From: Saccharicrinis sp.
GTDB taxonomy: Bacteria; Bacteroidota; Bacteroidia; Bacteroidales; Marinilabiliaceae
DNA length: 40,222 bases
Direction of reading: 5' to 3'
Assembly (NCBI GenBank): GCA_024635585.1
Contig: JAGXIP010000144.1
Location: 1-40,222 of the forward strand
The position numbers and the translations under genes were made by a program. This document shows positions 2,772 through 38,215 of this stretch, one piece after another. The first letter of the stretch is position 1, and every line of letters starts with the position of its first letter. Under the pieces are notes generated by a model. It made no database searches. It was not told the origin of the DNA and worked only from the letters and a program-made list of their open reading frames with translations.

Positions 2772-3146
2772 ATGATAAAACAAGAGAACAACCAAACTAA
2801 ACAATTGGTAGATCGGGTTGTTGAGGGTATTCAAGAGCAGAAGGGCACAAATATTGCAATCCTCGACATGCGAAAAATTGACGGCAGCATTTGCGATTAT
2901 TTTATTATCTGCGATGGCAGTAGCAATACCCAAGTAGAAGCCATTAGCAATTCAGTTGATGTTTATGTGGGCAAAAAACTGAATGAAAAACCATTTCACA
3001 TTGAAGGAAGACAAAATGCCGAATGGGTTTTAGTTGATTACGTGGACGTAATTGTTCATGTTTTTCAGCGACCTATACGCGCTTTTTATAACCTCGAGGG
3101 TTTATGGGCAGATGCCAAACGTACAGACATCGAGAATTTATTTTAG
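2772..3146 (+). CDS. rsfS: Ribosome silencing factor RsfS
   Basis: RsfS (DUF143/Iojap family) binds ribosomal protein uL14 and blocks joining of the 50S and 30S subunits when nutrients are scarce. The 124-residue protein has the family pattern: the segment CDYFIICDGSSNTQVEAI (about 42-59), then GRQNAEWVLVDYVDVIVHVF (about 83-102), and the terminal YNLEGLWADA. Length matches the family. It lies 22 bases before ftsH and is probably co-transcribed with it, as in most Bacteroidetes. The ATG at 2772 gives the normal N-terminus. Confidence 0.95.
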   Translation: MIKQENNQTKQLVDRVVEGIQEQKGTNIAILDMRKIDGSICDYFIICDGSSNTQVEAISNSVDVYVGKKLNEKPFHIEGRQNAEWVLVDYVDVIVHVFQRPIRAFYNLEGLWADAKRTDIENLF

Positions 3147-3168
3147 TAAGTTATTTATTATTTTCCGA

Positions 3169-5244
3169 ATGAGCGAAGAACAAAAACAAAAAAACGAACC
3201 TGTTAATCAGGGCGGAAGCAATACAAATCCTAAGTTTCCAAAGTTTAACGGGTACTGGATATACGGCATCATCTTACTTTTACTGATTTCATTTTTTATG
3301 GTGAAACAAGAGGGTGTGGTAAAGAAAATGCCCTACAGTAAGTTTATCGAAAAGGTATTGCCATCCGGCGATATTGAGATGTTGACAGTTATCACCAATG
3401 AAAATGCCTTGGAGGTAGTCATCAAAAAAAATAAACTCGAAAATTACAAGGACGATTTTGGGGATACCTATTCTACTTTAACAGAAGGCACTCCTCATTT
3501 TTTTGTAAAAGTACCATCCATCGACAGTTTTGTGGAAGACCTGCGACGCGTGGAGCAGAGCCAAGGTATATCCATACCCAACAACTACGAGCAGCGATCG
3601 AATTATTTTAACGAAATATTGGGCTTTTTATGGCCATTATTGCTTTTGCTTATTATCTGGGTGTTTATTTTCCGGAAAATGGGAGCGCAAGGTGGCGGAG
3701 GTGGAGCTGGTAACATTTTTAACGTAGGTAAATCCCGCGCCAAAATTTTCGACAAAGAAGCCGAAATTAAAGTCAACTTTACAGATGTGGCCGGTCTGGC
3801 CGAAGCAAAACAGGAGCTGGAAGAGATTGTAGAGTTTCTAAAGAAACCCGAAAAATTCACCAACCTAGGCGGTAAAATACCTAAGGGAGCACTTTTGGTA
3901 GGCCCTCCAGGAACAGGTAAAACCTTATTGGCCAAAGCCATTGCAGGTGAAGCCAACGTGCCGTTCTTTAGCATGTCTGGTTCTGATTTTGTAGAGATGT
4001 TTGTGGGTGTAGGCGCCTCACGGGTGCGCGACTTGTTTAAAAAAGCCAAAGAAAAAGCACCTTGTATCGTGTTTATTGATGAGATTGACGCCATAGGCCG
4101 AGCCAGAGGTAAAAACCCCAACATGGGTGGTAACGACGAACGAGAAAACACGCTAAACCAACTACTTACCGAGATGGACGGATTCGGCACCAACTCGGGT
4201 GTTATATTATTAGCAGCCACCAACCGTGCCGATATTTTGGATAGAGCTTTAATGAGAGCAGGCCGTTTTGACAGGCAAATTCATGTGGAGCTGCCTGATA
4301 TTAAAGAGCGCAAACAGATTTTTGAAGTGCACTTACGTCCGCTTAAGTTAAGCAATGAGGTTAAAGCATCCTTTTTGGCCAAGCAAACACCTGGATTTTC
4401 AGGAGCAGACATAGCCAACGTGTGTAACGAATCCGCCTTGATAGCCGCACGTGGTAATAAAAGTATTGTTGAAAAAGATGACTTCTTAAATGCCGTGGAC
4501 AGAATAGTAGGCGGATTAGAGAAAAAGAACAAAATCATATCAAAGGACGAGAAAAAAGCCATTGCCTATCATGAGGCAGGCCATGCCGCTACAAGTTGGC
4601 TATTGGAGTATGCACATCCTTTGGTAAAAGTAACTATCGTACCAAGGGGCAAAGCATTGGGAGCCGCCTGGTATCTGCCCGAAGAGCGCCAGCTTACCAC
4701 CACGGAGCAAATGTTAGACGAAATGTGCTCGGCCTTAGCAGGTAGAGCAGCCGAAGAATTGGAGTTTGGCAAAATTTCGACCGGTGCACTTAACGACCTC
4801 GAAAAAGTGACCAAACAAGCTTATGCCATGGTAACTTATTACGGTATGGGCAAAAAACTGGGTAATGTAAGTTATTTTGATTCGAGCGGTCAAAACGAAT
4901 ATGGCTTTACCAAACCTTACAGCGAAGAGACAGCCCAGGGCATTGACCAGGAAGTATCAGAAATAATTGAAAAACAGTACCAACGAGCCAAAAAAATACT
5001 TGTCGAAAACAAGGATAAACATGCACAATTGGCCAACCTGCTGCTGGAACGCGAAGTAATATTTAGCGAAGACCTGGAAACTATTTTCGGAAAACGGATG
5101 AGCAAGCACATTATTCAGTTTGATGAGAATGGTAGCGAAAAAAACCCTTTTGAGGATGAAGATGATGAAGATAATAAACCAAGCATAGAGGCTAAAACAG
5201 AAGAGAGCGAAATTACGGACAAGGCAGAAAATAAAAAACAATAA
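3169..5244 (+). CDS. ftsH: ATP-dependent zinc metalloprotease FtsH
   Basis: Membrane-anchored AAA+ protease that unfolds and degrades membrane and short-lived cytosolic proteins. The start is taken at 3169, giving 691 residues; the open frame continues upstream into rsfS, but that extension is not family-like. Visible features: first membrane segment at about 30-45; periplasmic domain; second membrane segment before a Gly-rich linker (about 145-185); Walker A GPPGTGKT (245-252); Walker B with D304-E305; the ATNRADILDRAL...GRFDR second region of homology; zinc site HEAGH (468-472) with third ligand D543 (in ALNDLE). The C-terminus is an acidic tail (EDEDDEDN). The stop lies 6 bases before cdsA. 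Confidence 0.97.
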   Translation: MSEEQKQKNEPVNQGGSNTNPKFPKFNGYWIYGIILLLLISFFMVKQEGVVKKMPYSKFIEKVLPSGDIEMLTVITNENALEVVIKKNKLENYKDDFGDTYSTLTEGTPHFFVKVPSIDSFVEDLRRVEQSQGISIPNNYEQRSNYFNEILGFLWPLLLLLIIWVFIFRKMGAQGGGGGAGNIFNVGKSRAKIFDKEAEIKVNFTDVAGLAEAKQELEEIVEFLKKPEKFTNLGGKIPKGALLVGPPGTGKTLLAKAIAGEANVPFFSMSGSDFVEMFVGVGASRVRDLFKKAKEKAPCIVFIDEIDAIGRARGKNPNMGGNDERENTLNQLLTEMDGFGTNSGVILLAATNRADILDRALMRAGRFDRQIHVELPDIKERKQIFEVHLRPLKLSNEVKASFLAKQTPGFSGADIANVCNESALIAARGNKSIVEKDDFLNAVDRIVGGLEKKNKIISKDEKKAIAYHEAGHAATSWLLEYAHPLVKVTIVPRGKALGAAWYLPEERQLTTTEQMLDEMCSALAGRAAEELEFGKISTGALNDLEKVTKQAYAMVTYYGMGKKLGNVSYFDSSGQNEYGFTKPYSEETAQGIDQEVSEIIEKQYQRAKKILVENKDKHAQLANLLLEREVIFSEDLETIFGKRMSKHIIQFDENGSEKNPFEDEDDEDNKPSIEAKTEESEITDKAENKKQ

Positions 5245-5250
5245 GTATAG

Positions 5251-6063
5251 ATGAGTAATTTTTGGCAACGTGCCCTAACAGGTCTCTTATTTGTTATCGT
5301 AATTGCAGGTGGAATTTACTATCATCCATTTTCATATTTTGCGATTTTCTTTCTAGTAGTTATAGCTGGGGTATATTAACTAAACCAATTTCTAGCCAAA
5401 GCCGATATTAAAATCGACTTTGGTTCGGCTTTGGCGATAGCAATATTTGCCTATGCTTCCTCTTTCCTTGTTCAATCCGGCATATCCAAACCAGCTATCT
5501 ACTTTATATTAATACCCTTGATTTCCATCCTGTTTATTAGAGAATTATTTAAGGAAATCAATACACCATTTACCAATATAGGAGCCGGACTATTGGTTGC
5601 CCTGTACATAGGTGCACCATTTGCATTAATGCACAATTTAGCCTTTTACGAAGGGAATTATAACTATCAATTACCCTTATCGGTATTTATTTTAGTTTGG
5701 ATAAACGATACGGGTGCATATGTTACCGGGATAAGCATTGGCCGTCATAAATTTTTTAAGCGCATATCGCCTAAAAAAACATGGGAAGGAACCATTGGAG
5801 GCTTTGTTTTTACCCTAATCGCCGCCTATGTTATATCTTTATTTTGGAAAGAATTGCACTGGGCGCATTGGATTAATTTTGGAGGAATTATATCTGTTAT
5901 GGCAGTCTTAGGCGACCTAATTGAATCTATGTTTAAACGCTGCATCAACATAAAGGACTCCGGTTCTTTTTTTCCGGGGCATGGTGGATTGTTAGACCGT
6001 TTTGATGCTGTTATTTTTGCCCTCCCCATGGCCGTATTTTACATTGAAGTTTTTGTAAGGTAG
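5251..6063 (+). pseudogene. cdsA: Phosphatidate cytidylyltransferase interrupted by an in-frame stop
   Basis: CdsA makes CDP-diacylglycerol from CTP and phosphatidate in the inner membrane. An ATG at 5251, six bases after ftsH, opens a frame (MSNFWQRALTG, then a membrane segment) that meets TAA at 5377-5379 (codon 43). The same frame then continues without another stop to 6063. With codon 43 read as an amino acid the product would be 270 residues, normal for the family. The C-terminal half carries the full signature: SPKKTWEGTIGG and then SMFKRCINIKDSGSFFPGHGGLLDRFDA. Family alignment suggests Glu (GAA) at this position, so one G-to-T change explains the stop. The downstream part could only start at TTG 5431 (codon 61) or ATG 5629. 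It may be a sequencing error, a recent mutation or readthrough. Confidence 0.85.
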
Positions 6064-6122: not shown

Positions 6123-6182
6123 CTAGTTATAATACCTTAAAAGTTAAAATAAAATTGTGCATCAATACCAATTTCTTGGATG

Positions 6183-6190
6183 TATCTTTG
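6183..6190 (+). promoter_or_regulatory. Candidate -7 promoter element (TATCTTTG)
   Basis: An exact match to TAnnTTTG ends four bases before the helicase ATG at 6195. Transcription starting about 5-7 bases after the element would give an mRNA with almost no leader. The nearest TTG (6155-6157) is 25 bases upstream, a little too far. Confidence 0.5.
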
Positions 6191-6194
6191 CACC

Positions 6195-7511
6195 ATGCAC
6201 AAAAACAGAAAACAATATTTGGATAAGCTGGGTATTTCCACCCTTAACCCCATGCAAAATAAGGCCATTGCGGCCATAGAACAAAATAAAGACCTTGTAT
6301 TGTTGGCTCCAACAGGCTCGGGCAAAACATTAGCATTTTTACTTCCTTTGCTGGATAAGCTACGGCTTGATTTGGAACAAACACAAGTACTTATATTAGC
6401 TCCCGCACGCGAATTAGCACTACAACTGGAGCAGGTGATAAAAAGCTTGGGATCGGCCTGTAAAACGCTGTGTTGTTATGGTGGACATTTAATACAAACA
6501 GAAAGAAACAGCCTAAAACATCCACCCCACATCATTGTGGGAACGCCCGGCAGGATTGCAGATCATGTGAGACGTGGGCATATCAACATCAATCATATCA
6601 AATATCTGGTTTTAGACGAGTTTGACAAAGCTTTGGAACTAGGTTTTCAAAGTGAGATGCAAGATATTATCAGTGAACTCAATGCAGTACAACAACGCAT
6701 ACTTACCTCGGCCACCAATATCAACGAAATACCAACTTTTGTGAGGATGAAAGGATACGAAACGTTGGACTTTATTCCCAATAATCAGATTCAGGAAAAC
6801 TTGACATTGAAGGGAGTGCGGGCAGAGGCCAAGGATAAACTGGATGCTTTTTTTAAGTTAGCCTGTATGTTGGGTAATGAGCCTATGGTTGTTTTTGTGA
6901 ACCATCGTGAGGCAGCCGACAGGATTAGTACCCACCTAAATGACATGGGTCTTGCTCACGATATATTCCATGGTGGATTGAAACAGGAGGATAGAGAGAA
7001 GGCGCTTATTAAATTCCGAAATGGAAGCCATCATATTTTGCTCACTACCGATTTGGCCTCAAGGGGCTTGGACATTCCCGATATTAAATATGTAATTCAT
7101 TACCACCTACCCACCCAAAAAGAGGCGTTTATCCATCGTAATGGCCGCACAGCGCGCATGAAGGCTTCTGGTATTGCCTATCTTGTTTTGGGCAATGATG
7201 AACCCATACCCGAATATATTGAGGATAGTTTTGCTTTTGACACTTTAGCGGAAGATGAACCTTTGCCAACCCTTCCCGATTGGCAAACGATATATGTTGA
7301 TCATGGTAAAAAAGACAAAATTAACAAAGTAGATATTGTTGGCCTTTTTATGAAAAAAGGAGAACTGCAAAAAGAAGATATTGGTCTTATTGATGTTTTG
7401 GACTTTTCATCTTTTGTGGCCGTAAAACGCTATAAAGTAAAACAACTGATTAATACATTACAAAACGAACGAATTAAGGGAAAAAAATTGAGGATTATGA
7501 TTTCGACCTGA
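6195..7511 (+). CDS. DEAD-box ATP-dependent RNA helicase, DbpA-like C-terminus
   Basis: Unwinds RNA duplexes with ATP, probably in ribosome assembly. The ATG at 6195 is preferred to one at 6180 because the latter overlaps the promoter element; it gives 438 residues. Motifs in order: Q-motif region (LNPMQNKAI), motif I ATGSGKT-like PTGSGKT (39-45), Ia PARELAL, Ib TPGRIAD, motif II DEFD (141-144, Phe for Ala), III TSATN, IV VFVNHR, V TTDLASRGLDIP, VI HRNGRTAR. Residues from about 365 onward (WQTIYVDHGKKDKINKVDIVGLF...) match the DbpA RNA-binding domain, which in E. coli DbpA targets 23S rRNA helix 92. Motif III has Asn after TSAT. It stands alone; cdsA is upstream and the next gene is convergent. 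Confidence 0.92.
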   Translation: MHKNRKQYLDKLGISTLNPMQNKAIAAIEQNKDLVLLAPTGSGKTLAFLLPLLDKLRLDLEQTQVLILAPARELALQLEQVIKSLGSACKTLCCYGGHLIQTERNSLKHPPHIIVGTPGRIADHVRRGHININHIKYLVLDEFDKALELGFQSEMQDIISELNAVQQRILTSATNINEIPTFVRMKGYETLDFIPNNQIQENLTLKGVRAEAKDKLDAFFKLACMLGNEPMVVFVNHREAADRISTHLNDMGLAHDIFHGGLKQEDREKALIKFRNGSHHILLTTDLASRGLDIPDIKYVIHYHLPTQKEAFIHRNGRTARMKASGIAYLVLGNDEPIPEYIEDSFAFDTLAEDEPLPTLPDWQTIYVDHGKKDKINKVDIVGLFMKKGELQKEDIGLIDVLDFSSFVAVKRYKVKQLINTLQNERIKGKKLRIMIST

Positions 7512-14478: not shown

Positions 14479-15960
14479 TTAATTCAATCCGTTATGAATC
14501 AACCATTCAAACTCATCATCCACTTCCACCTTAACACCTTGCGGAACAGTGATGACAACCTGTAGTTTTTGGTTTCTGATTTTACTATTTTCTTGCAAGG
14601 TAAATATCGCATCCAAATTCAAAACAGCCTCTTTCTGCATCCAAAAAAATTCAATATCACGGCCATTTTTTTGCGCTTGGCTAACCGAACCTCCTTTTGC
14701 CGATTTCTTAATTTGAATAGAATAGTCCTGGCCATGCACCAATTCAATACGGGGATTACCCTGTACATAGAGTTTTTGGTTATTCGCATAAATATCTAAC
14801 TGATTTATATCGAACAGATGTTCTTTATAATCAAGGGATCGGGCGGTATCATTAGGCTTTATGTAAATTATACTATCCGAGGGAACCACCAATAATTCTT
14901 TCTTATAAACTTCTTGAGTTACAGTAAAGTCGCGTGCCACCTTGGCAGAAACGTAAAATATCATGATTAAGCCCGCAATCCAAAGTAACAGTGAAGTCAA
15001 TCCCAAATACCTAAACCGTGCGTGAAACCTAAAAACCAATTTAAAGCCCAGATAAAATAAAACCATTACCGGAATGCAGCTTACCAAAATAAGTCCAATA
15101 CTACCAAGTAGCATCTCATTTTCGGATACAAAAAGACCAGGTAACGATGCTACATAGTTGCTCACTCCCGTAAAATCAAAAAAGGTAAAACCAAATGTAA
15201 AAGTGAATAATAGCGACACCAATACAATAAGTGTTGTTATCATTAAAACAACGCCAATTATTACCCCCAACACCCTAACTATACCACCCAGTGCGTTGCC
15301 CATAATATCTGAGCTACGCGAATAAGCTACTGACGACCGCTGGTAAGCATTTGAACGCTTGAAATTATCGTGCACTTCGTTGTACTCATTCTTAATATTT
15401 TCTTGCCACCTCTCGTAAGCAGCAGGACCTCTCATTTGTAACTTTTGGGATATGGTAAGGGCTTTAGGCATCGCAATCCATAATACCAAATAAACAATAA
15501 GGGATGAGCCATAAAAGAAAAAGAGCAATAAAAAAGCTATCCGGAATACCATCGGATCTATATTAAAGTATGCACCAAGGCCACCGCATACGCCACCCAA
15601 CACTCGGCTGTCAGGATCGCGGAATAAACGCTTGCCATACGGGGGCGGGTTTGATTCCGTGAACGATTGCTGACGGGTATTTCCTTCGCTTTCATCTTCA
15701 TCCGCAATATCCTGCGGTTGGCCAATGGTACTGATAACCTCCTCCACCTGACTTAGGGTGATCACCTCTTCCGATGATTCCTTTTTACCATGGAAAAGTT
15801 CTGCAATACGGGCCTCTATATCCGACACAATTTCTTTGGCCTCCTCTTTATCCGAGAAACTTCTTTCAATTTTTTGAAGATATTGATTCAACTTGTCATA
15901 CGCATCTTCGTCGATATGAAAAGCAAAACCATTTAGGTTGATGTATAATGTTTTTTTCAT
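14479..15960 (-). CDS. PspC domain-containing membrane protein (long)
   Basis: A 493-residue inner-membrane protein. Residues 1-85 form a conserved N-terminal domain (MKKTLYINLNGFAFHIDEDAYDKL, then IARIAEL-type and SQVEEVISTIGQPQDI) shared with the next paralogue. Residues 110-169 are PspC (LFRDPDSRVLGGVCGGLGAYFNIDP, then a membrane segment and IVYLVLWIAMPKA). Three or four more membrane segments follow at about 230-345 and a C-terminal region of beta type (about 360-493) that may be extracytoplasmic. PspC proteins sense envelope stress or bind PspA-like partners. This is the last gene of the PadR-PspC-PspC operon, 95 bases after the shorter paralogue. Confidence 0.88.
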   Translation of the reverse strand: MKKTLYINLNGFAFHIDEDAYDKLNQYLQKIERSFSDKEEAKEIVSDIEARIAELFHGKKESSEEVITLSQVEEVISTIGQPQDIADEDESEGNTRQQSFTESNPPPYGKRLFRDPDSRVLGGVCGGLGAYFNIDPMVFRIAFLLLFFFYGSSLIVYLVLWIAMPKALTISQKLQMRGPAAYERWQENIKNEYNEVHDNFKRSNAYQRSSVAYSRSSDIMGNALGGIVRVLGVIIGVVLMITTLIVLVSLLFTFTFGFTFFDFTGVSNYVASLPGLFVSENEMLLGSIGLILVSCIPVMVLFYLGFKLVFRFHARFRYLGLTSLLLWIAGLIMIFYVSAKVARDFTVTQEVYKKELLVVPSDSIIYIKPNDTARSLDYKEHLFDINQLDIYANNQKLYVQGNPRIELVHGQDYSIQIKKSAKGGSVSQAQKNGRDIEFFWMQKEAVLNLDAIFTLQENSKIRNQKLQVVITVPQGVKVEVDDEFEWLIHNGLN

Positions 15961-21682: not shown

Positions 21683-23128
21683 ATGCTTTTTAATTCGATA
21701 GATTTTGCCATCTTCTTGCCAATAGTATTCGTACTTTATTGGTTTGCTACAAACAAAAACCTAAAGCTTCAAAATTCCCTAATCGTAACTGCGAGTTATG
21801 TATTTTATGGTTGGTGGGATTGGCGGTTTCTGTCGTTAATACTATTTAGCACACTTGTCGATTATTTTGTGGGGCGTGCACTTGCCAGCGAAGAAACCCA
21901 ACAAAAAAGAAGAATTTACCTTTGGACGAGTATCCTGGTAAATCTTGGTTTTTTAGGCTTTTTTAAATATTACAACTTTTTTATAGCTAATTTTATAAGT
22001 GCTTTCACGCTTTTTGGCAAGGAAATAAATGGCAGCACTTTGAATATTATTTTACCCGTAGGCATCAGCTTCTATACTTTTCAAACATTGAGTTATAGTA
22101 TTGATGTATATAAACGGAAACTAAAACCTACCAACGACTTCATTGCATTCTCAGCCTTTGTGAGTTTCTTTCCTCAATTGGTAGCCGGGCCTATAGAAAG
22201 AGCAACACACCTGCTTCCACAATTTTATAAAAAACGCACTTTCGATTATTCCAAAGCCGTGGATGGGATGCGTCAGATACCTTGGGGGCTGTTTAAAAAA
22301 GTAGTTATTGCCGATAATTGTGCCGAATACGCCAATATGATATTCAACAATTCGGCGGATTATTCGGGCAGCACACTTGTTTTGGGTGCCTTGTTCTTTA
22401 CCTTTCAAATATATGGCGATTTCTCGGGCTATTCGGATATTGCCATTGGTACGGCACGTCTGTTTGGTTTCGACCTGATGCAAAACTTTGCCTTCCCCTA
22501 TTTTTCGCGCGATTTTGCTGAATTCTGGAGGCGATGGCACATCTCCCTCTCCACCTGGTTCCGAGACTACTTGTACATACCCTTAGGCGGAAGCCGGGTA
22601 AACACAGCCCGCGCCATACGCAATACTTTCATTATTTTTATCGTCAGTGGCTTTTGGCACGGTGCCAACTGGACTTTTATTATATGGGGACTTTTAAATG
22701 CAATCTATTTTATCCCCTTACTGCTAAGCGGCAAAAACCGAAAACACTTAAACACGGTGGCACAAGGACGCTATTTACCCAACTTTAAGGAATTGATTTC
22801 GATGGGCTTTACCTTTGCATTAACCGTGTTTGCCTGGATATTTTTTAGGGCGGATGATTTGGCACATGCCATGCAATATATTATGGGGATCTTTAAACAT
22901 CCCAGCTCGTTTTTGTTGCTAAGTGTGTATTGGGAGTACAAAATAGTTTTATTTTTAATCGCATTGTTTATTACCATTGAGTGGTTAGGCCGCGAAGGAA
23001 AGTATGCTATAGCAACTGGCATGAACCTAAATAAGCGCGTCTACAGATGGGCATTCTATCTGTCTATCTGTTTTTTCATTCTTCTCTTTCAAGGTAAACA
23101 ACAAGAGTTTATATATTTTCAATTTTAG
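21683..23128 (+). CDS. MBOAT-family O-acyltransferase, AlgI-like
   Basis: Multi-pass membrane protein that moves an acyl group, usually acetyl, across the inner membrane to a glycan or an accessory protein. The 481-residue protein has about ten hydrophobic segments and the AlgI/DltB-type motifs: ILPVGISFYTFQTLSYSIDVYK, FFPQLVAGPIERA, FQIYGDFSGYSDIAIG, FWRRWHISLSTWFRDYLYIPLGG and VSGFWHGANWTFIIWG with the catalytic His326. Length matches AlgI (about 470-520). It is followed after two bases by the SGNH-like gene, so they are translationally linked. The glycan acceptor is unknown. Confidence 0.93.
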   Translation: MLFNSIDFAIFLPIVFVLYWFATNKNLKLQNSLIVTASYVFYGWWDWRFLSLILFSTLVDYFVGRALASEETQQKRRIYLWTSILVNLGFLGFFKYYNFFIANFISAFTLFGKEINGSTLNIILPVGISFYTFQTLSYSIDVYKRKLKPTNDFIAFSAFVSFFPQLVAGPIERATHLLPQFYKKRTFDYSKAVDGMRQIPWGLFKKVVIADNCAEYANMIFNNSADYSGSTLVLGALFFTFQIYGDFSGYSDIAIGTARLFGFDLMQNFAFPYFSRDFAEFWRRWHISLSTWFRDYLYIPLGGSRVNTARAIRNTFIIFIVSGFWHGANWTFIIWGLLNAIYFIPLLLSGKNRKHLNTVAQGRYLPNFKELISMGFTFALTVFAWIFFRADDLAHAMQYIMGIFKHPSSFLLLSVYWEYKIVLFLIALFITIEWLGREGKYAIATGMNLNKRVYRWAFYLSICFFILLFQGKQQEFIYFQF

Positions 23129-23130
23129 CC

Positions 23131-24099
23131 ATGCGATCGTTCCTAACAAATACACTTTTATTTATGTCTATCTTTATAGGGATAGTAGTATTGATAGAAA
23201 CAGTTTCTTCAGCCATAATTAGAGAGAAGGCTGATTTTAAACTCTCGTCAAATCCTAAATATATTGTAGTAGGGCATTCTCATCCCGAATGTGCCTTTAA
23301 CGATTCTCTCATATCCAATTTTAAAAATATTGCAGAATCAGCGGAAGCTTACTTTTACACCTACTTTAAAACAAAAGAAATAATCAAACACAACCCCTCC
23401 ATTAAAGTCGTTTTTATTGAATTTACAATTAATCAAATAAATGAAAGTGCTAACAGCTGGATATGGGACAATGAATATATTAGCTATAGGTACGCACAAT
23501 ATTCATCTTTTATGGGGCAGAAGGATGAAATATTGCTGTTTAAGAAAAATACTAACGGATACCCTAGCCTATTTTCTCTTTCGATGAAAAAGAATTTGGG
23601 TAGGGTTTTGAAAAGCAACTATAATTTTTCAGAAGATATAGGGGGATATCAATATTTAGCTTTAAGCAAAACTGATTCCTTAATTAAAAGTGCATCAAAA
23701 ACTGATACTAAACAATTAAATAAAGAATTGAGCATCTCGGAACATAACCTCTATTACCTCTCTAAATTAATTGAATATTGCAGAAGTAAGGAAAAAAAAG
23801 TATTATTAGTGCGCAGTCCCATGCACCAACAATACGAAGGCTTTGCGAATGAAGCCCTATTTCTGAAAATATTAAATAAAAAATATGCAAAAATTGATTT
23901 TTTAGATTTCTCAGAATTCCCACTCTCTAATGAATCGTACTTTGATTTAGACCACTTAAACTATAAGGGTGCAAAAGTGTTTTCAACCTTTTTTGCAGAG
24001 CTATTGGATAACGGCCTGATGGATAAAGATAATAAACAGGTGTTTATAGATATTGAAATGAAGGCATTTGGACAAGATGCAGATAGTGATAAACAATAA
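23131..24099 (+). CDS. Membrane-anchored SGNH-like protein, probable MBOAT partner
   Basis: A 322-residue protein with one N-terminal membrane segment (about 5-28, LLFMSIFIGIVVLIETVSSAI) and the rest outside the cytoplasm. SGNH-like marks: VVGHSHPECAFNDS with Ser50 as nucleophile candidate and FDLDHLNYKGA with D272-xx-H275. The GHSH block replaces the usual GDS, and I could not place the Gly and Asn of the full family clearly. Such proteins are typical partners that transfer the acyl group from MBOAT to a polysaccharide (AlgJ/AlgX-like by analogy). It lies 2 bases after the MBOAT gene. Middle region (about 100-200) is not recognised. Confidence 0.7.
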   Translation: MRSFLTNTLLFMSIFIGIVVLIETVSSAIIREKADFKLSSNPKYIVVGHSHPECAFNDSLISNFKNIAESAEAYFYTYFKTKEIIKHNPSIKVVFIEFTINQINESANSWIWDNEYISYRYAQYSSFMGQKDEILLFKKNTNGYPSLFSLSMKKNLGRVLKSNYNFSEDIGGYQYLALSKTDSLIKSASKTDTKQLNKELSISEHNLYYLSKLIEYCRSKEKKVLLVRSPMHQQYEGFANEALFLKILNKKYAKIDFLDFSEFPLSNESYFDLDHLNYKGAKVFSTFFAELLDNGLMDKDNKQVFIDIEMKAFGQDADSDKQ

Positions 24100-24264
24100 C
24101 TTTACTGGTTATAAAACATAACTATTACCTTCTTGTAAATTTCAAAAAACAAGTAAAGTATCTTTCTAACAAAATTAATCAAAAAACTTCTGCCCAAGGT
24201 TAACATACCTTTTCCCTAATATTTTTTTACATTTATCCCTTATTTATCTAACGCTATAAATTAC

Positions 24265-25737
24265 ATGTTAAAACCCCCAAAAATACTTTTATACTACCTT
24301 ATTATTTTGGTGTTGTTTGGGACGCTTAGTTATTTCATACCTGCCGAAGGCTTAAAATTAGGATCTTCGGGATACCGATTGCGTTGGCTATCGCTGGATA
24401 GAATATGGCAAAAAACGGAATCACCCAAAACTGGTATCGCTATCGATTCCACAAAATTGGTGTTAGATGTAGTTGAAGATACAACCAAAGCTACTGCCTA
24501 CAGCATTGATTCATTAACTACGGATACTTTAATAACAGAAGATTTTACATTCTCTGATTCTATTGCAGATAATAATCAAGCCAGCAATTTACGATTAATC
24601 TATCCTTCCTCCTTCAAAGAAATGCTTCAAGCATTTTATCGTAAAATTGAAACTGCCAGTGATTCCGGAAAGGTCATTCGCATATTGCACATGGGCGATT
24701 CGCAAATTGAGGGCGACCGTATTTCTCGTTACCTTCGCCAAAGCTTCCAAACCAACTTTAAAGGTTCAGGTCCCGGATTGGTGCCTTTGTATGATCCTTT
24801 GAAACAATTCCCTTCGGTTTGGATACGCAACAAAGGAGCTTGGAGTGAGCATGTGGTTTATAATTATCCACGACTGATAAAAGGCAATCAATACGGAATT
24901 ATGGGCAAGGTATCTCTTATCGATTCCATAGGGGGATCATCGGTTATCATTACGCGTTCATCGATGGCACAGCCCGGTGCATCCAATTACTATAAGTCCA
25001 GGCTATTTTTAAAAAAGATAGCCCGTCCGCTCACCATTAACGCCTATTGGGATAACCAGCTCATCAGCTCCGACTCATTGCAGATAGACGAAAATATTAC
25101 CGAAATTAACTGGACTTTTCAAAAGGCACCTCAAAAATTTTCGCTCACCTTTGAGTCTGATATCAGCCCTTTGTTTTTAGGAATGAGTCTGGACAGCCTG
25201 AGCGGTGTGGCGGTAGATAATATTGCAATGCGCGGACAATCGTCGCCACGGCTCGACAAAACAGATAAGCAGCTATACAAACAAATGGCCGCCTATATGA
25301 ACATTGGCATGGTGATATTACAATATGGAACCAATATGGTGCCCACTGTAACTGATAACTATGCTTTTTACCGACAAGATTTTTACCAACAGTTACTAAT
25401 TTTAAAACAAACCATGCCGGGAGTGCCCGTAGTGGTTGTGGGCGTGGGTGATGTGGGCAAACTTACCGATGGCAAAGCGGAAGCTTACACACATATCTAT
25501 AAAATTAAGGAGGCTCAAAAAGCGGCCGCGTTTAAGGCTGGATTTGCTTTTTTCGACCTTTTTGAAGCTATGGGTGGACAGGGCTCCATGATTAAATGGG
25601 CAAACGGCGACCCTAAGCTGGCCATGAGCGACTACACGCATTTTAACAAGCCGGGTGGCAAAAAAGTAGCCGATTGGTTGTATGCGTCTATTATGAGTGA
25701 GTATGATAGAAAAGTAATATCGAAAGCCAAGGATTAA
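24265..25737 (+). CDS. SGNH/GDSL hydrolase-family protein
   Basis: A 490-residue protein with an N-terminal membrane segment (about 8-25, YLIILVLFGTLSYFIP), a Thr/Ser/Asp-rich linker (about 55-110) and a large SGNH domain. The four blocks are seen: MGDSQIEGDR (Ser146), a Gly in AMRGQSS, Asn in QYGTN, and DYTHFNKPGG (D456, H459). An insertion between blocks I and II forms a beta-rich carbohydrate-binding-like domain (about 195-320). It probably completes O-acylation or de-acylation of an extracellular glycan with the MBOATs on either side. TATCTTTC at 24159-24166 is a weak promoter candidate. Confidence 0.85.
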   Translation: MLKPPKILLYYLIILVLFGTLSYFIPAEGLKLGSSGYRLRWLSLDRIWQKTESPKTGIAIDSTKLVLDVVEDTTKATAYSIDSLTTDTLITEDFTFSDSIADNNQASNLRLIYPSSFKEMLQAFYRKIETASDSGKVIRILHMGDSQIEGDRISRYLRQSFQTNFKGSGPGLVPLYDPLKQFPSVWIRNKGAWSEHVVYNYPRLIKGNQYGIMGKVSLIDSIGGSSVIITRSSMAQPGASNYYKSRLFLKKIARPLTINAYWDNQLISSDSLQIDENITEINWTFQKAPQKFSLTFESDISPLFLGMSLDSLSGVAVDNIAMRGQSSPRLDKTDKQLYKQMAAYMNIGMVILQYGTNMVPTVTDNYAFYRQDFYQQLLILKQTMPGVPVVVVGVGDVGKLTDGKAEAYTHIYKIKEAQKAAAFKAGFAFFDLFEAMGGQGSMIKWANGDPKLAMSDYTHFNKPGGKKVADWLYASIMSEYDRKVISKAKD

Positions 25738-25832
25738 ATGGCTATGCGCATTAAATTAATAATTTTTTAAGTTTTGGCACAAGCTGTTATAAAACTATTA
25801 TTTTTATCCTCAAATCCATTAAACCACTCACA

Positions 25833-27341
25833 TTGGAAATTGCACTAAGCATATTAAAATATAACCCCAATGCCAGTTTTGTTTTCACACATTACCTGTT
25901 CTGGTTGTTTTTTGGCGTGGTGCTGCTGGGTAATGCTTTGCTGTATAAACGTAGCGTGCTCCGCAATGCTTTTTTGTTTGTTGCAAGTATATTTTTTTAC
26001 TACAAAGCCGGAGGATTCTACTTTTTTATATTGCTATTTTCAACCTTAGTCGATTATTCCATTGGCATAGGCATAGGCAAGTCTAACAAGCAAGGGATAC
26101 GTAAATTTTTACTTGTCCTGAGTTTGATTATAAACCTGTGTTTATTGGGCTATTTTAAATACAGTTATTTCATTGCCGACCTCATCCAGCAAATTACTGG
26201 AACCCAAATCACGGTGATTAATTACTTTTCTGTATTCACCAACGCCCTTTTCAACACACGTTTAGATGCAAGCCATATCCTCTTGCCAGTCGGCATTTCT
26301 TTCTTCACCTTCCAAACCATCAGCTATTCAGTAGATGTGTACAGGCGGAGAATTGAACCCGTAAAAAACATTCTGGATTTTGGTTTTTATGTATCTTTCT
26401 TCCCACAGTTGGTGGCAGGACCAATCGTTAGAGCATGGGAATTTATTCCACAGCTACATCAAAAATATGCATTGTCCGAAAAACGATTTTGGCTGGCAGT
26501 GTGGCTCATCATGGGCGGACTGTTCAAAAAAATGGTCATCTCCGATTACCTCTCCGTAAACTTGGTAGACAGGGTTTTTGACGCCCCCATGATGTATAGC
26601 GGAATCGAACTATTGATGGGGGCTTATGCCTACACCATGCAAATTTATTGCGATTTTTCGGGCTATACCGACATTGCCATTGGAGTAGCCTTGATTTTGG
26701 GTTTTAAACTGCCCGATAATTTTAATCTGCCTTACGTAGCCACTTCGGTAAGCGATTTTTGGCGCCGATGGCACATCTCCCTTTCATCCTGGTTACGCGA
26801 CTACCTCTACGTACCTTTAGGCGGCAACAGAAGAGGTATGACTCGCATGGGCATTAACCTAATGATTACCATGCTACTGGGCGGTCTTTGGCATGGTGCC
26901 GGGTGGTTATTTGTGATTTGGGGCGCGTTGCACGGCTTGGCGCTACTGTTTGAGAAAATATCTTTCAAAGCCCTTAAAAAAGCAAAGCTGAGAATCCCCA
27001 AGTTTATTGGCTTCCTCTTCACCTTCCATTTTATCGTAATCACCTGGATAGTTTTCCGGTCGCCCGATGTAGATACACTACAATTGTTTTTTATTCGCTT
27101 GTTTTCGGCATTTTCCATTTACGACATGAGCAAACTTTTCAATTCGTATTCTGGCGTAGTGTTAATTATGTTTGTGGGGTATATGATGCATTGGCTACCT
27201 TCGGAACTGGAAAGGCTTGTTAAATGGAAACTTGTTAAAGCCAACGTAGTCATTAAAATTATAGCTGTAGTTGTTTTTGGCCTCATCATTTATCAGTTTA
27301 GTCAAATGGATATCAAGCCATTTATCTATTTTAGGTTTTAG
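25833..27341 (+). CDS. MBOAT-family O-acyltransferase, second copy
   Basis: A 502-residue AlgI-like membrane protein. Motifs: LLPVGISFFTFQTISYSVDVYRR, FFPQLVAGPIVRAWEF, MQIYCDFSGYTDIAIG, FWRRWHISLSSWLRDYLYVPLGG and LGGLWHGAGWLFVIWG with catalytic His354. It differs enough from the first MBOAT that it is a paralogue rather than a recent duplicate. No ATG lies in the open frame upstream (stop at 25752), so TTG at 25833 is the likely start; this N-terminus (EIALSILKYNP) suits the family. It closes the MBOAT-SGNH-SGNH-MBOAT cluster, 95 bases after the SGNH gene. Confidence 0.9.
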   Translation: MEIALSILKYNPNASFVFTHYLFWLFFGVVLLGNALLYKRSVLRNAFLFVASIFFYYKAGGFYFFILLFSTLVDYSIGIGIGKSNKQGIRKFLLVLSLIINLCLLGYFKYSYFIADLIQQITGTQITVINYFSVFTNALFNTRLDASHILLPVGISFFTFQTISYSVDVYRRRIEPVKNILDFGFYVSFFPQLVAGPIVRAWEFIPQLHQKYALSEKRFWLAVWLIMGGLFKKMVISDYLSVNLVDRVFDAPMMYSGIELLMGAYAYTMQIYCDFSGYTDIAIGVALILGFKLPDNFNLPYVATSVSDFWRRWHISLSSWLRDYLYVPLGGNRRGMTRMGINLMITMLLGGLWHGAGWLFVIWGALHGLALLFEKISFKALKKAKLRIPKFIGFLFTFHFIVITWIVFRSPDVDTLQLFFIRLFSAFSIYDMSKLFNSYSGVVLIMFVGYMMHWLPSELERLVKWKLVKANVVIKIIAVVVFGLIIYQFSQMDIKPFIYFRF

Positions 27342-29991: not shown

Positions 29992-31644
29992 ATGAATAAA
30001 ACTTTGTTTCTTCTCATATATCTCCTTTGTTCTTCTTCGTTATTTGCCAAAAGCGAATTGGATTCTCTTATCGTTTTGCTGGAAAACACTATAAAGGAAG
30101 CACCCATTTACGAACAGAAAAAGATCAATAAAATTGAGAGCATTAAGAATATTTTGGCGAATACGCACATTAGTAAAGAGCAAAAGTTTTTTGTCAATGG
30201 CCAATTAATAGAGGAGTATTTAAAATATAATTTCGACTCTACACTCCATTATGTAAATCTGAATCAAAAATTGGCCGAAGAGTTGGGTAACCCGGAACTG
30301 CAAGTTCAGTCCAATATAAGAATGGCTTCTGTACTTGCTTCTTCGGGCAGATATTTTGAAGCCGTTGAACAACTGGAACGTATTGATAAAAAACATCTAT
30401 CAAACAGATACCTTATTGATTATTACAATGCCTTAATTAAAGTATATAACGATTTAAATTTTTATACGCCTTCCGTGCAAAACAAGCAGAGATACTCCAC
30501 CATCTTAAATGAGTACATCAATTTATTATTGCCACTTTTAGATAAAGAATCGGATCAATATCTGTCCATCCTTGAAAAACAGTACCGTGATCAACGAAAT
30601 TTAACGGAATGCGAAAAGATAAATACACTACGCTTGTCCAGAGCAGAAATGGGAACCAGTGAATATTCCCTAATAACCTTTGAGCGTTCTTTGCTATTCG
30701 AACTAAAAAATGAACCACTTTTAAGAAAAAAGTACCTGATTCTATCGGCTATATCTGATATTAAAGCAGAAGTTAAAGACAATGCTTCATTAACAGAACT
30801 GGCTTTAATACTTAACGAAGAGGGAGATGTTGAAAGGGCACACCATTTCATTATGTTCTCGTTTAAAGATGCCTCCTTTTATAATTCACGCTTACGATTT
30901 ACTGTCATTTCCGAAATTTTACCCGTCATCACAAATGCCTACCAAATTAAAACGGCTCAACAGCAAAAAACGTTAAGCAAACTTCTCGTCATTATAAGTG
31001 TCCTATTGTTTATACTGTTGCTGGCTATATTTTTCATACACCGACAATTGCGCTCTTTAAAAAAAGCACAAGGCGAATTAAAAAAAGTAAACGATCAATT
31101 AAAACTCCTCAATTACAACCTAAAAAACTCTAACAGTCAATTGAATGTAGTTAATGACAAGCTTGCCGAAGCCAACCAATTAAAAGAACATTACATAGGT
31201 AACTTCCTCACCATTTTTTCTAATTACATAGATAAACTGGATGAGATGAACAAAATGGTGAATAAAAAGATAGCAGCCAGGCAGTTTGAAGAATTGTTCC
31301 GATTAACCCAATCAAAAAAATTAATTTATACCGAAATACAAGAATTTTATAAAAGCTTTGATGATACGTTTTTGCATATTTTCCCAAATTTTGTGGAGCA
31401 GTTAAATAATTTACTGACACCCGAAGAGCAAATAGTATTAAAGGATGAAGAAAGGCTAAATACCGAGCTTCGCATATTTGCACTTATCCGATTGGGCATT
31501 AATGATAGTTCTAAAATCGCCAAACTACTTCGCTATTCGGTTAATACCATTTATAATTACCGCGTAAAAATTAAAAATAAGGCTCTTACCGATCGCGATA
31601 ACTTTGAAAACAGCGTCATGCTAATTGGTGTGGCCAAAAAATAA
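29992..31644 (+). CDS. DUF6377 domain-containing regulator
   Basis: A 550-residue membrane protein typical of Bacteroidetes regulators placed beside SusC/SusD pairs. A signal peptide (about 1-19, ending SLFAK) precedes a helical, TPR-like extracytoplasmic region (about 20-325). One membrane segment follows at about 331-351 (LLVIISVLLFILLLAIFFI), then a coiled coil (about 355-400, repeated LKKVNDQLKLLNYNLKNSN pattern), the DUF6377 core (YIGNFLTIFSNYIDKLDEM) and a C-terminal helix-turn-helix-like part (LGINDSSKIAKLLRYSVNTIYNYRVKIKNKA) of LuxR-like type. It probably senses a glycan signal in the periplasm and activates the susC promoter 300 bases downstream (inference). Confidence 0.85.
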   Translation: MNKTLFLLIYLLCSSSLFAKSELDSLIVLLENTIKEAPIYEQKKINKIESIKNILANTHISKEQKFFVNGQLIEEYLKYNFDSTLHYVNLNQKLAEELGNPELQVQSNIRMASVLASSGRYFEAVEQLERIDKKHLSNRYLIDYYNALIKVYNDLNFYTPSVQNKQRYSTILNEYINLLLPLLDKESDQYLSILEKQYRDQRNLTECEKINTLRLSRAEMGTSEYSLITFERSLLFELKNEPLLRKKYLILSAISDIKAEVKDNASLTELALILNEEGDVERAHHFIMFSFKDASFYNSRLRFTVISEILPVITNAYQIKTAQQQKTLSKLLVIISVLLFILLLAIFFIHRQLRSLKKAQGELKKVNDQLKLLNYNLKNSNSQLNVVNDKLAEANQLKEHYIGNFLTIFSNYIDKLDEMNKMVNKKIAARQFEELFRLTQSKKLIYTEIQEFYKSFDDTFLHIFPNFVEQLNNLLTPEEQIVLKDEERLNTELRIFALIRLGINDSSKIAKLLRYSVNTIYNYRVKIKNKALTDRDNFENSVMLIGVAKK

Positions 31645-31947
31645 AATCGAACTGCCTTAAAAAGCAGATTTTTATTTTTGATAGAGTTTCAATTCTATCT
31701 AAAATTAATACGTTTATTTAGGATTTTTAACTTTACATGCACTTAACCCATCCACTTTTTTACAAAATCCCACATCGTTTAACCTTCACAATTTCAGCCA
31801 CATAAACCATCCGTAGGTCTAATTCAATCTACTTTTCCACTACACACCTTAGTTCTTTATTTGTTTTTACCTTCTCTTTACAAATAGTAAAAACACACCT
31901 CGTTTTTACATGAGTAGCAACATACATTAACAAATAAATACTTAATT
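31645..31947. other. 303-base leader region upstream of susC
   Basis: Begins with a terminator-like structure: CTGC/GCAG hairpin at 31650-31668 with bulged A/T extension and a T-run (31669-31679). GATAGA (31680-31685) and TCTATC (31694-31699) form a palindrome with an 8-base loop just after it, a possible operator. TATTTTTG at 31673-31680 fits the -7 consensus but overlaps the T-run. No ORF. The rest is C/T-rich with no named signal. Confidence 0.5.
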
Positions 31948-34905
31948 ATGAAGAAATCTATTTTGTGGGCGTATCACAAATTTATAGTATGCGCAGTTAT
32001 TGGACTGCTTTTGTCCATTAACATGACAGCCCAGCAACCAAGCGTCAGCGGAAAAGTGACGGATAAAAGTGGCGACCCCATTCCAGGCGTTTCCATTGTC
32101 CTTAAGGGCACAACCATCGGAACCATATCAGGGATTGACGGTGACTTCAACCTTAGCAGTGAGATTCCTTTGGATGGCACACTAATTTTTAGCTTTATAG
32201 GGATGCAAACCAGGGAAGTCAATATGGAAGGACGATCGCAAATAAACGTTACCCTGATGGACGATATGCTCGGCTTAGATGAAGTAATTGTTGTGGGATA
32301 TGGAACGCAGGAAAAAAAGGATATTACTGGTTCCGTGGCAATGGTTAGTTCCGAAGAATTGGAGTCTCGCCCCAACACCCAACTTGGATCATTAATTCAA
32401 GGACGGGCAGCAGGAGTACGTGTAGTATCCGCATCAGGTAAACCGTCGGAAGGCTTAAGCGTGAGGGTTCGTGGAACCAACTCAGTTACAGCAGGAAGTG
32501 AACCTTTGTATGTAATAGATGGAATCCCAACCAGCGATACACGCTCTTTAAACCCTGCAGATGTAGAAACCATGACTATTTTAAAGGATGCTTCTTCTGC
32601 AGCCATTTATGGTGCACAGGGAGCTAACGGTGTAGTTTTAATTACTACTAAAAGAGGTAAGAGCGGCAAATCAAAAGTAAGCTTAGATGCATACACTGGA
32701 TTTTCAGAAGTATGGAATACCCTTCAAGTTTTAAATGGTGAACAGTATCGTGATTTAATGACCGAAATGGGACAGTCAACCGATTGGCAGCGATACAATA
32801 ATAATACAGATTGGCAGAATGAGGTATTCAAAAGAGGGGTGTCGCAAAACTACCAATTGTCCGTGTCGGGGGGAAATGATGAGACTACCTACTACATTTC
32901 TGGTGGCTGGGTGAAACAAGAAGGAGCCGTGAGGAGTGCCCAAATGGATAGAGCCAACTTTAAAGTCAACCTGAATCATGAAGTGAATAAATGGCTAAGC
33001 CTGGGAACCAGGATAGCTTATACCAAATACTCCGATGTTGATGTGAACGATAATAACGCAGTTAACCAAGGAGGAGTATTAACCGGGGTAATTAACACAC
33101 CAAGTGTTATTGGCATTTATAACGAAGATGGAACGTTTACTTCCAATCCTTTCCAGAATTGGGAAAACCCAATTGCCAGTACCGATGGTTCGGAGCGAGA
33201 ATATAAAAATGATCGTTTTCTGGGAAGTATGTACGTAAAGGTTGATTTTTTAAAGGATTTTTCTTTTAAAAGTAATCTTGGGGTTGACTATAGCAATGGT
33301 ATTTATGATAGTTTTCTGGATCCTTATTTAACCAGCTATGGGCGAGCCAAAGGTGGAATTGCAAACAACAATACCAATCGTAATAGCTACTGGATGATAG
33401 AAAATACACTATCCTACAATAAAAAAGTAGAAAGCCATTCGCTTGAAGCGTTAATTGGTGGTGTGGCTCAAAAATATTTATGGGAGAGCAATTACATCAC
33501 AACCGAAAACTTCTCTAGTAATGGTATTACAACCACAAATGCAGGTTCTATTATTACATCAGCTGGCAATACAAAGTCGGAGAAAACAAATACATCATTT
33601 ATTAGTAGGCTAAATTATTCATTTGATGATAAATATCTACTGACAGCCAACTTTAGGGCCGATGCCTCCAGTGCTTTTGGTCCTGATAACCGTTGGGGTT
33701 ATTTTCCATCATTTTCTGCCGGATGGCGTATATCTCAAGAATCATTTATGACAGGATTTGACTTTTTGAATGATTTAAAAGTTCGTGTTGGTTGGGGAGT
33801 AGTTGGTAACGACCAAATCCGTAATTATGCATATTATGGTTTAACAGGTTCTGGGGCAAATTATCCAATTGGAGGACAGGCTATGCCGGGAACATATCCT
33901 GCTGCAATTGACAACAATAGTTTGAAATGGGAGGAGTCTGAACAAACCAACGTAGGACTGGATCTTAATGTTTTTAATGGTCGTGTTCAATTAACAGCAG
34001 ATGCCTACATGCGTAAAACAAAAGATTTATTGTTAGATGCTCCTCTCCCACACAGCACAGGATACGATAATGCCTTACAAAACATTGGAAATCTTGAAAA
34101 TAAAGGTTTAGAATTTAGCCTGAATACAGTTAATATTGATAAAGCCATCGAGTGGAGTTCAACATTCAATATTTCTTTTAACAAGAACGAAGTAACCAAC
34201 CTGGTTGTAGAAAGCTTGCCTATGGGCAACATTGCAGGCAGAGGAGAGGCCATATTACTAGAAGAAGGTCAACCTTTGGGAACCTTATACGGATACGTGT
34301 GGGGTGGTGTGGACCCAGCAACCGGAAATGGTTACTATGTTGACCGAAATGGAGAAAGCACCTTTGATCCAACTCCTGAAGACAGGAAAATTATTGGAGA
34401 TGCTAACCCTGATTTCTTTTATGGAGTAAATAATTCAGTGATGTATAAGGGAATTGGGTTAACTATCTTCCTGGAAGGTAGTTATGGAAACGACATGTTG
34501 AATGCCACTAGAATAGATTCAGAGGGAATGAGTGATCCTAAAAATCAGTTGTTAACCGTTAACAACAGATGGAGACAAGCTGGTGATGTAACAAGCATTC
34601 CTAAAGCAAGCTGGGCAAACACTGATAACTCACGCATATCAACACGATTTATCGAAGATGCATCTTACTTAAGGGTTAAAACCATCACTTTAAGCTATGA
34701 TATTCCTCAAAAATTCGTGAAGAAAATAAATCTTGACAGGGTTAAAATTTATGCAACAGGGGAAAACCTGTTTACCGTAACTGATTATTCAGGCTTCGAC
34801 CCTGAGGTGAATGCATTTGGAGGCTCTAATACCATGAGAGGCATTGATTATGGAACCTACCCGCAAACACGAAATATCATCTTTGGTTTAAATGTTACCT
34901 TTTAA
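31948..34905 (+). CDS. SusC/RagA family TonB-linked outer membrane protein
   Basis: Outer-membrane channel that imports oligosaccharides with energy from TonB. The 985-residue protein has a signal peptide (about 1-28, ending MTAQQ), a carboxypeptidase-regulatory-like domain (about 32-112, VSGKVTDKSGDPIPGVSIVLKGTTIGTISGIDGDF), the TonB box region DEVIVVGYGTQEKKDITGSV (about 111-130), the plug with LIQGRAAGVRV and IRVRGTNS-type, and a beta-barrel ending RNIIFGLNVTF. Length matches the family. The susD-like gene starts 6 bases later, so they form a complex. The substrate is inferred from the GH30 genes. Confidence 0.96.
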   Translation: MKKSILWAYHKFIVCAVIGLLLSINMTAQQPSVSGKVTDKSGDPIPGVSIVLKGTTIGTISGIDGDFNLSSEIPLDGTLIFSFIGMQTREVNMEGRSQINVTLMDDMLGLDEVIVVGYGTQEKKDITGSVAMVSSEELESRPNTQLGSLIQGRAAGVRVVSASGKPSEGLSVRVRGTNSVTAGSEPLYVIDGIPTSDTRSLNPADVETMTILKDASSAAIYGAQGANGVVLITTKRGKSGKSKVSLDAYTGFSEVWNTLQVLNGEQYRDLMTEMGQSTDWQRYNNNTDWQNEVFKRGVSQNYQLSVSGGNDETTYYISGGWVKQEGAVRSAQMDRANFKVNLNHEVNKWLSLGTRIAYTKYSDVDVNDNNAVNQGGVLTGVINTPSVIGIYNEDGTFTSNPFQNWENPIASTDGSEREYKNDRFLGSMYVKVDFLKDFSFKSNLGVDYSNGIYDSFLDPYLTSYGRAKGGIANNNTNRNSYWMIENTLSYNKKVESHSLEALIGGVAQKYLWESNYITTENFSSNGITTTNAGSIITSAGNTKSEKTNTSFISRLNYSFDDKYLLTANFRADASSAFGPDNRWGYFPSFSAGWRISQESFMTGFDFLNDLKVRVGWGVVGNDQIRNYAYYGLTGSGANYPIGGQAMPGTYPAAIDNNSLKWEESEQTNVGLDLNVFNGRVQLTADAYMRKTKDLLLDAPLPHSTGYDNALQNIGNLENKGLEFSLNTVNIDKAIEWSSTFNISFNKNEVTNLVVESLPMGNIAGRGEAILLEEGQPLGTLYGYVWGGVDPATGNGYYVDRNGESTFDPTPEDRKIIGDANPDFFYGVNNSVMYKGIGLTIFLEGSYGNDMLNATRIDSEGMSDPKNQLLTVNNRWRQAGDVTSIPKASWANTDNSRISTRFIEDASYLRVKTITLSYDIPQKFVKKINLDRVKIYATGENLFTVTDYSGFDPEVNAFGGSNTMRGIDYGTYPQTRNIIFGLNVTF

Positions 34906-34910
34906 ATAAA

Positions 34911-36395
34911 ATGAAAATGAAAATTAAAGTATATATAATAAGCAGTTTGCTAGCAGTTTCGCTATGGTCATGTAACAATTTCCTTGACTTGAAACCCATT
35001 TCGGAAGAAACTACAGCAACAGCCTACGATTCATATAGCCAAATAGAGGCTGCCTTGACAGGAACTTACGAATCTTTTCAATCAGATACATACGTTTGGA
35101 ACAATATTACTTTTCAGGATGTGAGGTCTGATAATTATTATGCAGGAGGGGACAATCCTGAAATATTTGAAGTTGATTTTCTGAATATTTCTGCCACCAA
35201 CTCTAAAGTGTATCAAAGTTGGTCGAACTTATACAATGCCATATTAAAGGCAAACATTGTATTAGATAAAGTTGATGGAGTTAATGATCCTTTGCTATCC
35301 GATAAACGAAGAAACCAGATAAAAGGAGAAGCATACTTTTTAAGGGCTTATCATTATTATAACCTGGTAAATTTGTGGGGTGGTGTACCTCTTATTTTAG
35401 CACCCACTTCCTCAACTGAAGCCAGTGCAGTTAACGTTCCTCGTTCTTCTGCAGCAGAGGTTTTTGAGCAAATATTAATTGATTTGGACATGGCAATAGA
35501 TTTACTTCCTGACACCTATGGAGATGAAGCTTCTGTCAATAAAGCTCGCGCAACTACAGGGGCAGCTAATGCACTAGCTGCTAAAGCATGCGCACAAAAG
35601 CCTAATCCCGATTACACCAAAGCACTTGAATACATTGCTCAAGTTGAATTAAGTGATGCAAATTACCAACTCATTGATTATGCACATCTATTTGACGGGA
35701 ACCATTATAACAATGCGGAATCTATTCTTGAAATTCAATACCTGGGAGGCGACGAAGGAAACTGGGGCCCGCAGATGTTATTGCCGCCTTCAATTTCTGG
35801 CGATACCTGGAGGAAGTTTATTACACCTTCTAACAATTTGGTCAACGCCTTTGATGCAGAAGGTGATGAGGTACGAAAGAATGCAAGCATTTTATTTGAA
35901 GACATCACCAGTTGGGTAGATGAATATTGGGGTAATGCTTCCGGCAGTGCAATACCTTTTGCCTATAAATGGAAAAATGCCATGGGCTGGGCCAGTACCG
36001 ACCGTCAGTATATTTTGCGCTATGGAGATATTGTGCTCCTGAAAGCAGAAGCATTGAACGAAACCAACGAACTGGAATTAGCTGTAGCTGAAGTTAACCG
36101 TATCCGAACCCGTGTAAACTTGGATCCGTTAACCGCTGATAAAACAAGTAGCAAGGAAGTATTGCGTTTGGCAATTTTGAATGAACGCCGTCTTGAATTA
36201 GCACAGGAAGCCCAACGCTGGGACGACTTGGTACGTTATGGGGTTGCTGTTGAAACAATGAATAATCTGGTAGAAATTGATTTAAGGGATAATCAACCGG
36301 TGGCTTATGGAATGACTGAAGCCAAAATTCTACTTCCCATTCCTCAGCAAGAACTTGATAGAAATCCTGCTTTAGAAATCAATCCATCAAATTAA
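34911..36395 (+). CDS. SusD/RagB family nutrient-binding lipoprotein
   Basis: Surface lipoprotein that caps the SusC channel and binds glycan. The 494-residue protein has lipoprotein signal MKMKIKVYIISSLLAVSLWSC (Cys 21), then the SusD start NNFLDLKPISEETTATAYDSYSQIEAALTGTYESF (about 22-56). The helical TPR part includes IKGEAYFLRAYHYYNLVNLWGGVPLI. The C-terminal family end is present: YILRYGDIVLLKAEALNE, VNRIRTRV, LAILNERRLELAQEAQRWDDLVRYG, and LLPIPQQELDRNPALEINPSN. Length is typical. It follows susC by 6 bases. Confidence 0.96.
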   Translation: MKMKIKVYIISSLLAVSLWSCNNFLDLKPISEETTATAYDSYSQIEAALTGTYESFQSDTYVWNNITFQDVRSDNYYAGGDNPEIFEVDFLNISATNSKVYQSWSNLYNAILKANIVLDKVDGVNDPLLSDKRRNQIKGEAYFLRAYHYYNLVNLWGGVPLILAPTSSTEASAVNVPRSSAAEVFEQILIDLDMAIDLLPDTYGDEASVNKARATTGAANALAAKACAQKPNPDYTKALEYIAQVELSDANYQLIDYAHLFDGNHYNNAESILEIQYLGGDEGNWGPQMLLPPSISGDTWRKFITPSNNLVNAFDAEGDEVRKNASILFEDITSWVDEYWGNASGSAIPFAYKWKNAMGWASTDRQYILRYGDIVLLKAEALNETNELELAVAEVNRIRTRVNLDPLTADKTSSKEVLRLAILNERRLELAQEAQRWDDLVRYGVAVETMNNLVEIDLRDNQPVAYGMTEAKILLPIPQQELDRNPALEINPSN

Positions 36396-36492
36396 AAAAA
36401 TATGAAACGAGCCATGAGAATACTTGACACACTGGAGAGATGATTATTGGCGAGTTCCATCGAATGTATTTGAAAGTTAAAACTATAATGAG

Positions 36493-38199: not shown

Positions 38200-38215
38200 C
38201 TGAAATTTTACACCC

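Follow-up and report, generated by a model that had tools for sequence, protein, structure and literature searches.

We analysed a 40,222-nucleotide stretch of DNA from Saccharicrinis sp. (hereafter the window), which is contig C257 of a draft genome, G000 (310 contigs, 4.85 Mb, 90.5% complete and 2.5% contaminated). Its cdsA gene follows ftsH at a 6-base spacing that is the same in the nearest relative used for comparison, Saccharicrinis sp. LH_M88 (G002), and carries an in-frame stop codon. The NCBI taxonomy assigns Saccharicrinis to the Marinilabiliaceae. The features around the stop are as follows.

3112-5244, + strand: ftsH, ending in TAA 6 bases before cdsA
5251-6063, + strand: whole cdsA frame of 270 codons, with ATG at 5251 and TAG at 6061-6063
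5251-5376, + strand: cdsA codons 1-42, 5' of the stop (from the reading frame and the comparison with G002)
5377-5379, + strand: in-frame TAA, codon 43 of cdsA, which is Glu in near relatives (from the reading frame and the alignment)
5380-6063, + strand: cdsA codons 44-270 and TAG, matching Pfam CTP_transf_1, with the catalytic half intact (from the profile match and the 4q2g alignment)
5431-6063, + strand: possible re-initiated ORF of 210 aa with a TTG start (codon 61), the longest ORF 3' of the stop (a weak, inferred feature)
6180-7511, + strand: DEAD-box helicase gene (DbpA domain) downstream of cdsA, used as a dN/dS yardstick

Apart from codon 43, all 269 codons of cdsA are open, 42 of them preceding the TAA and 227 following it, and a preliminary description of the locus as a single frame interrupted solely at 5377-5379 is confirmed on the sequence. 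Read through its one stop, the frame matches PF01148 with 186.6 bits, over the gathering score. Codons 44-270 alone match with 175.5 bits, and the 42 residues before the stop gave no PF01148 match on their own. The product aligned with Thermotoga maritima CdsA (PDB 4q2g) through the catalytic region (E 2.9e-22). The CdsA signature has the form K-R...K-D...G-H-G-G...D-R..D. We took this signature and the C-terminal catalytic aspartates as a criterion of family membership, and both are present in the 4q2g alignment, where the earlier statement that the C-terminal signature is intact holds. We also took as a criterion an uninterrupted frame across the N, M and C domains, and this is broken by the TAA at codon 43. 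CdsA is described as essential in E. coli in a passage of PMC6362211.

The preliminary description expected Glu at codon 43 and proposed an alignment with close relatives, and the alignment bears this expectation out. Among 120 aligned rows, 9 fall short of the column; the 111 that reach it include 9 gaps, the window itself and some genomes present twice, and Glu is the commonest residue (81/111). All of the 13 nearest rows, which come from the genus and its neighbours and represent at least 10 genomes (three pairs with equal identities may each be the same genome twice), have a sense codon for Glu. The stop is shared by none of these 13 rows and occurs in 1 of the 111, the window itself. The G002 contig (C257), which is identical to JAGXIO010000167.1 over the 12,025 bases compared, has a codon one base away from TAA, in line with the earlier claim that TAA is one change from GAA, whereas the codon of G006 is two bases away.

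The dN/dS of cdsA between the window and G002 was 0.065 overall, 0.064 for codons 44-270 and 0.036 for codons 1-42, the last value resting on few changes (dN 0.010; 1 nonsynonymous and 7 synonymous differences). Between G002 and G006 it was 0.055, and the downstream helicase gene gave a value similar to that of cdsA (0.059). The stop at codon 43 is the sole private change of the window at a cdsA column that is invariant in the 13 other rows, and 75 columns are invariant across all 14 rows. The neighbouring ftsH, with 393 invariant columns in 10 rows, has no private window change. By a rough bound, any period in which cdsA escaped selection covers less than about 8% of the time elapsed after divergence from G002. 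Because dN/dS is as low as 0.065 and no other invariant column carries a private change, selection on cdsA appears to have been kept up until very recently. Judged by its sequence, this is a normal cdsA under selection, encoding a predicted CDP-diacylglycerol synthase, just downstream of ftsH. An old pseudogene, with a replacement of some other kind, would account for the presence of one in-frame stop, but is therefore barely conceivable. Derived changes numbered 40 synonymous and 20 nonsynonymous on the window branch (the stop counted; 2 of the other 19 nonsynonymous changes are artefacts of counting where one codon holds more than one change) and 28 and 7, respectively, on the G002 branch. 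This nonsynonymous excess (20/60 vs 7/35) would fit a slight relaxation, but it is not significant (Fisher p 0.24).

Equal conservation on both sides of the stop is also what would be predicted if programmed or leaky read-through of UAA, or a suppressor tRNA, yielded full-length CdsA. However, the stop is found in none of the compared relatives, and TAA is the commonest terminator among 31 hand-picked window genes, ending 18 of them, the adjoining ftsH included. Moreover, no UAA-reading tRNA was seen among the 25 tRNA loci found, 24 of them named by ARAGORN, in an incomplete search that scored 150 of 356 candidates; tRNAs for Ala, Glu, Ile, Phe and Trp are missing from these 25 loci. The read-through raised in the preliminary description is thus unsupported, and we regard it as highly unlikely.

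Interrupted cdsA genes were sought across the order. By stop flags, cdsA is broken in 3 of 398 genomes, namely G000, G036 and G239, where 398 is a hand count of genomes with a PF01148 match (39 + 150, among the matches listed, + 80 + 80 + 61, minus 12 repeats); 14 further genomes searched gave no PF01148 match. In G036 (contig C510), cdsA is interrupted by TGA at codon 34, the one other clear nonsense case; in G239 (contig C13) the frame changes near an N, which is probably an assembly fault. No second copy was found in either genome, each having one PF01148 match. The fourth of the four flagged best matches, in G219, was dropped, its stop being the natural end of cdsA, and the stop flag on a paralogue in G020 lies before its ATG. 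Since the flags count stops only, ignoring frameshifts, and some matches are partial (e.g., in G056, G109, G154, G225 and G384), interruptions may be undercounted. A broken cdsA at a low rate in drafts of this order calls for caution and merits a check against reads.

With the catalytic half entirely 3' of an early stop, translation might restart, for instance at TTG 5431, to give a C-terminal piece that might make CDP-diacylglycerol either by itself or together with the N-terminal one; the nonsense codon of G036 is likewise early. The in-frame starts 3' of the stop are TTG at codons 61, 90 and 115, followed by ATG at codon 127. Against a restart, the TTG at 5431 (codon 61) is a normal Leu codon, unchanged in G002 and replaced by CTG in G006, and the first downstream ATG comes as late as codon 127. 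Mapped by eye onto the CdsA domain layout outlined in a passage of PMC7018664, the codon-61 product would miss the N-domain helix and part of the dimer domain. A restart would also free codons 1-42 to decay, and their undecayed state speaks against it. Re-initiation at TTG 5431, one of the options put forward earlier, is conceivable, but we consider a restart very unlikely.

A search for a second copy, also proposed in the preliminary description, yielded only one further PF01148 gene over the cut-off in G000, and this gene is diverged and seems to be of a kind that does not replace CdsA in E. coli.

Contig C237, 4664-5392: CdsA2, intact, 242 aa, with a PF01148 match over the cut-off

CdsA2 is 34% identical to the cdsA product in a local match over residues 140-255 of the latter, has its best PF01148 stretch at 96-235 and retains the GD and DR.D aspartates. 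It matches T. maritima CdsA (4q2g) with an E of 1.8e-15 in an alignment that spans residues 14-229 and is weak at the N side. Its neighbours are a TauE-like gene on one side and a PF01148-like ORF with a weak score (16.4 bits, below the cut-off) on the other, and an SDR-like gene (PF07993) and a CDP-alcohol phosphotransferase gene (PF01066) belong to the same block. The whole block (L115:3232-10442) consists of DUF6134, TauE, CdsA2, the PF01148-like ORF, the SDR-like gene, the CDP-alcohol phosphotransferase gene and DUF5686, and its product may be an unusual phospholipid. A second strong PF01148 match of the CdsA2 size class was found in 7 of 41 genomes. G002 has one PF01066 match.

If cdsA were truly lost, CdsA2 might supply CDP-diacylglycerol and make the loss tolerable. 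This would accord with its being an intact protein that keeps the aspartates and matches T. maritima CdsA, with its place beside the PF01148-like ORF, the SDR-like gene and the CDP-alcohol phosphotransferase gene, and with G002, which has no second PF01148 match and an intact cdsA. However, a collinear copy of the block occurs in G001, G004 and G006, and all three keep cdsA intact. Furthermore, neither dN/dS nor private changes reveal decay of cdsA in the window, and G036 and G239 are interrupted without a second PF01148 match. CdsA2 appears to resemble CdsA mainly in the C-terminal half, as E. coli YnbB is described to do. According to passages of PMC7018664 and PMC6362211, YnbB makes CDP-DAG in vitro, and the latter states, as data not shown, that even overproduced YnbB did not complement a cdsA knockout. 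By this analogy CdsA2 is a doubtful stand-in for CdsA, and a loss tolerated through it seems quite improbable.

The quality of the draft bears on whether the stop is an error. We hand-picked 26 complete window genes that have a partner in G002; cdsA is interrupted and the other 25 are not. In G000, no stop lies within the matched stretch of 48 of 49 ABC_tran matches and of all 25 TonB-barrel matches; the 49th ABC_tran match, below the cut-off and with 10 stops, is probably no gene. Stray stops thus appear uncommon in G000. True genes account for two further stop flags (3052-5244 and 14479-15960), which fall in N-terminal extensions 5' of the likely starts, and the remaining flags in the window are on wrong-frame or antisense ORFs. 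A codon-score scan for stop-split genes over 275 kb of G000, a span that takes in the window, gave 7 candidates, of which 5 were junctions with an ATG within 4 codons and 2 were weak, and a stricter version gave none. Since cdsA was absent among the 7, the scan is insensitive and no conclusion was drawn from it.

Two other regions of the window were noted. At 29992-39667 lies a DUF6377/SusC/SusD/SusE-like/GH30 block that the G002 contig lacks at the corresponding position. At 21683-27341, two MBOAT O-acyltransferase genes flank a 322-aa ORF (23131-24099), which gave no hit in Pfam at E 1e-5 and has no counterpart in the G002 contig.

The stop is absent from relatives and the sequence on both sides of it is otherwise conserved; for these reasons we favour an otherwise normal cdsA in which a base error or a variant of very recent origin very probably explains the TAA at codon 43. 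Of the options in the preliminary description, base error (with a very recent variant beside it) appears to fit best, and the other three, namely a second copy, read-through and re-initiation, are weak. Between error and variant, we infer that a single-base error in the draft assembly would be the probable origin of the TAA. This is more likely than a nonsense mutation that arose very recently and is carried by the sequenced strain or by a fraction of its population, which we regard as a minority possibility. Set against an error is the otherwise clean state of G000 where checked; an error would therefore need one stray base, and a high error rate lends it no support. On the likeliest account, the stop needs no biological mechanism of its own. 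It is improbable that the strain has just lost full-length CdsA, with the YnbB-like paralogue or a re-initiated C-terminal CdsA sustaining bulk phospholipid synthesis. If this were true, the N-terminal part of CdsA would be dispensable in some Bacteroidota, and a real stop would offer a natural experiment on whether the bulk of phospholipid synthesis can be sustained by a CdsA paralogue or a truncated CdsA.

With regard to known systems, CdsA2 and E. coli YnbB also have in common a nearby CDP-alcohol phosphotransferase gene, which in E. coli is ynbA. As in G036 and G239, the break in the window is early and lies in a draft genome. In those two genomes it hits the only PF01148 match; it is TGA at codon 34 in G036 and TAA at codon 43 here, whereas in G239 the frame changes near an N. 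Compared with CdsA, the CDP-diacylglycerol synthase of the PF01148 family (T. maritima 4q2e/4q2g), the cdsA product is alike over its whole length and in the C-terminal signature, and it is the in-frame TAA at codon 43 that sets the cdsA of this contig apart.
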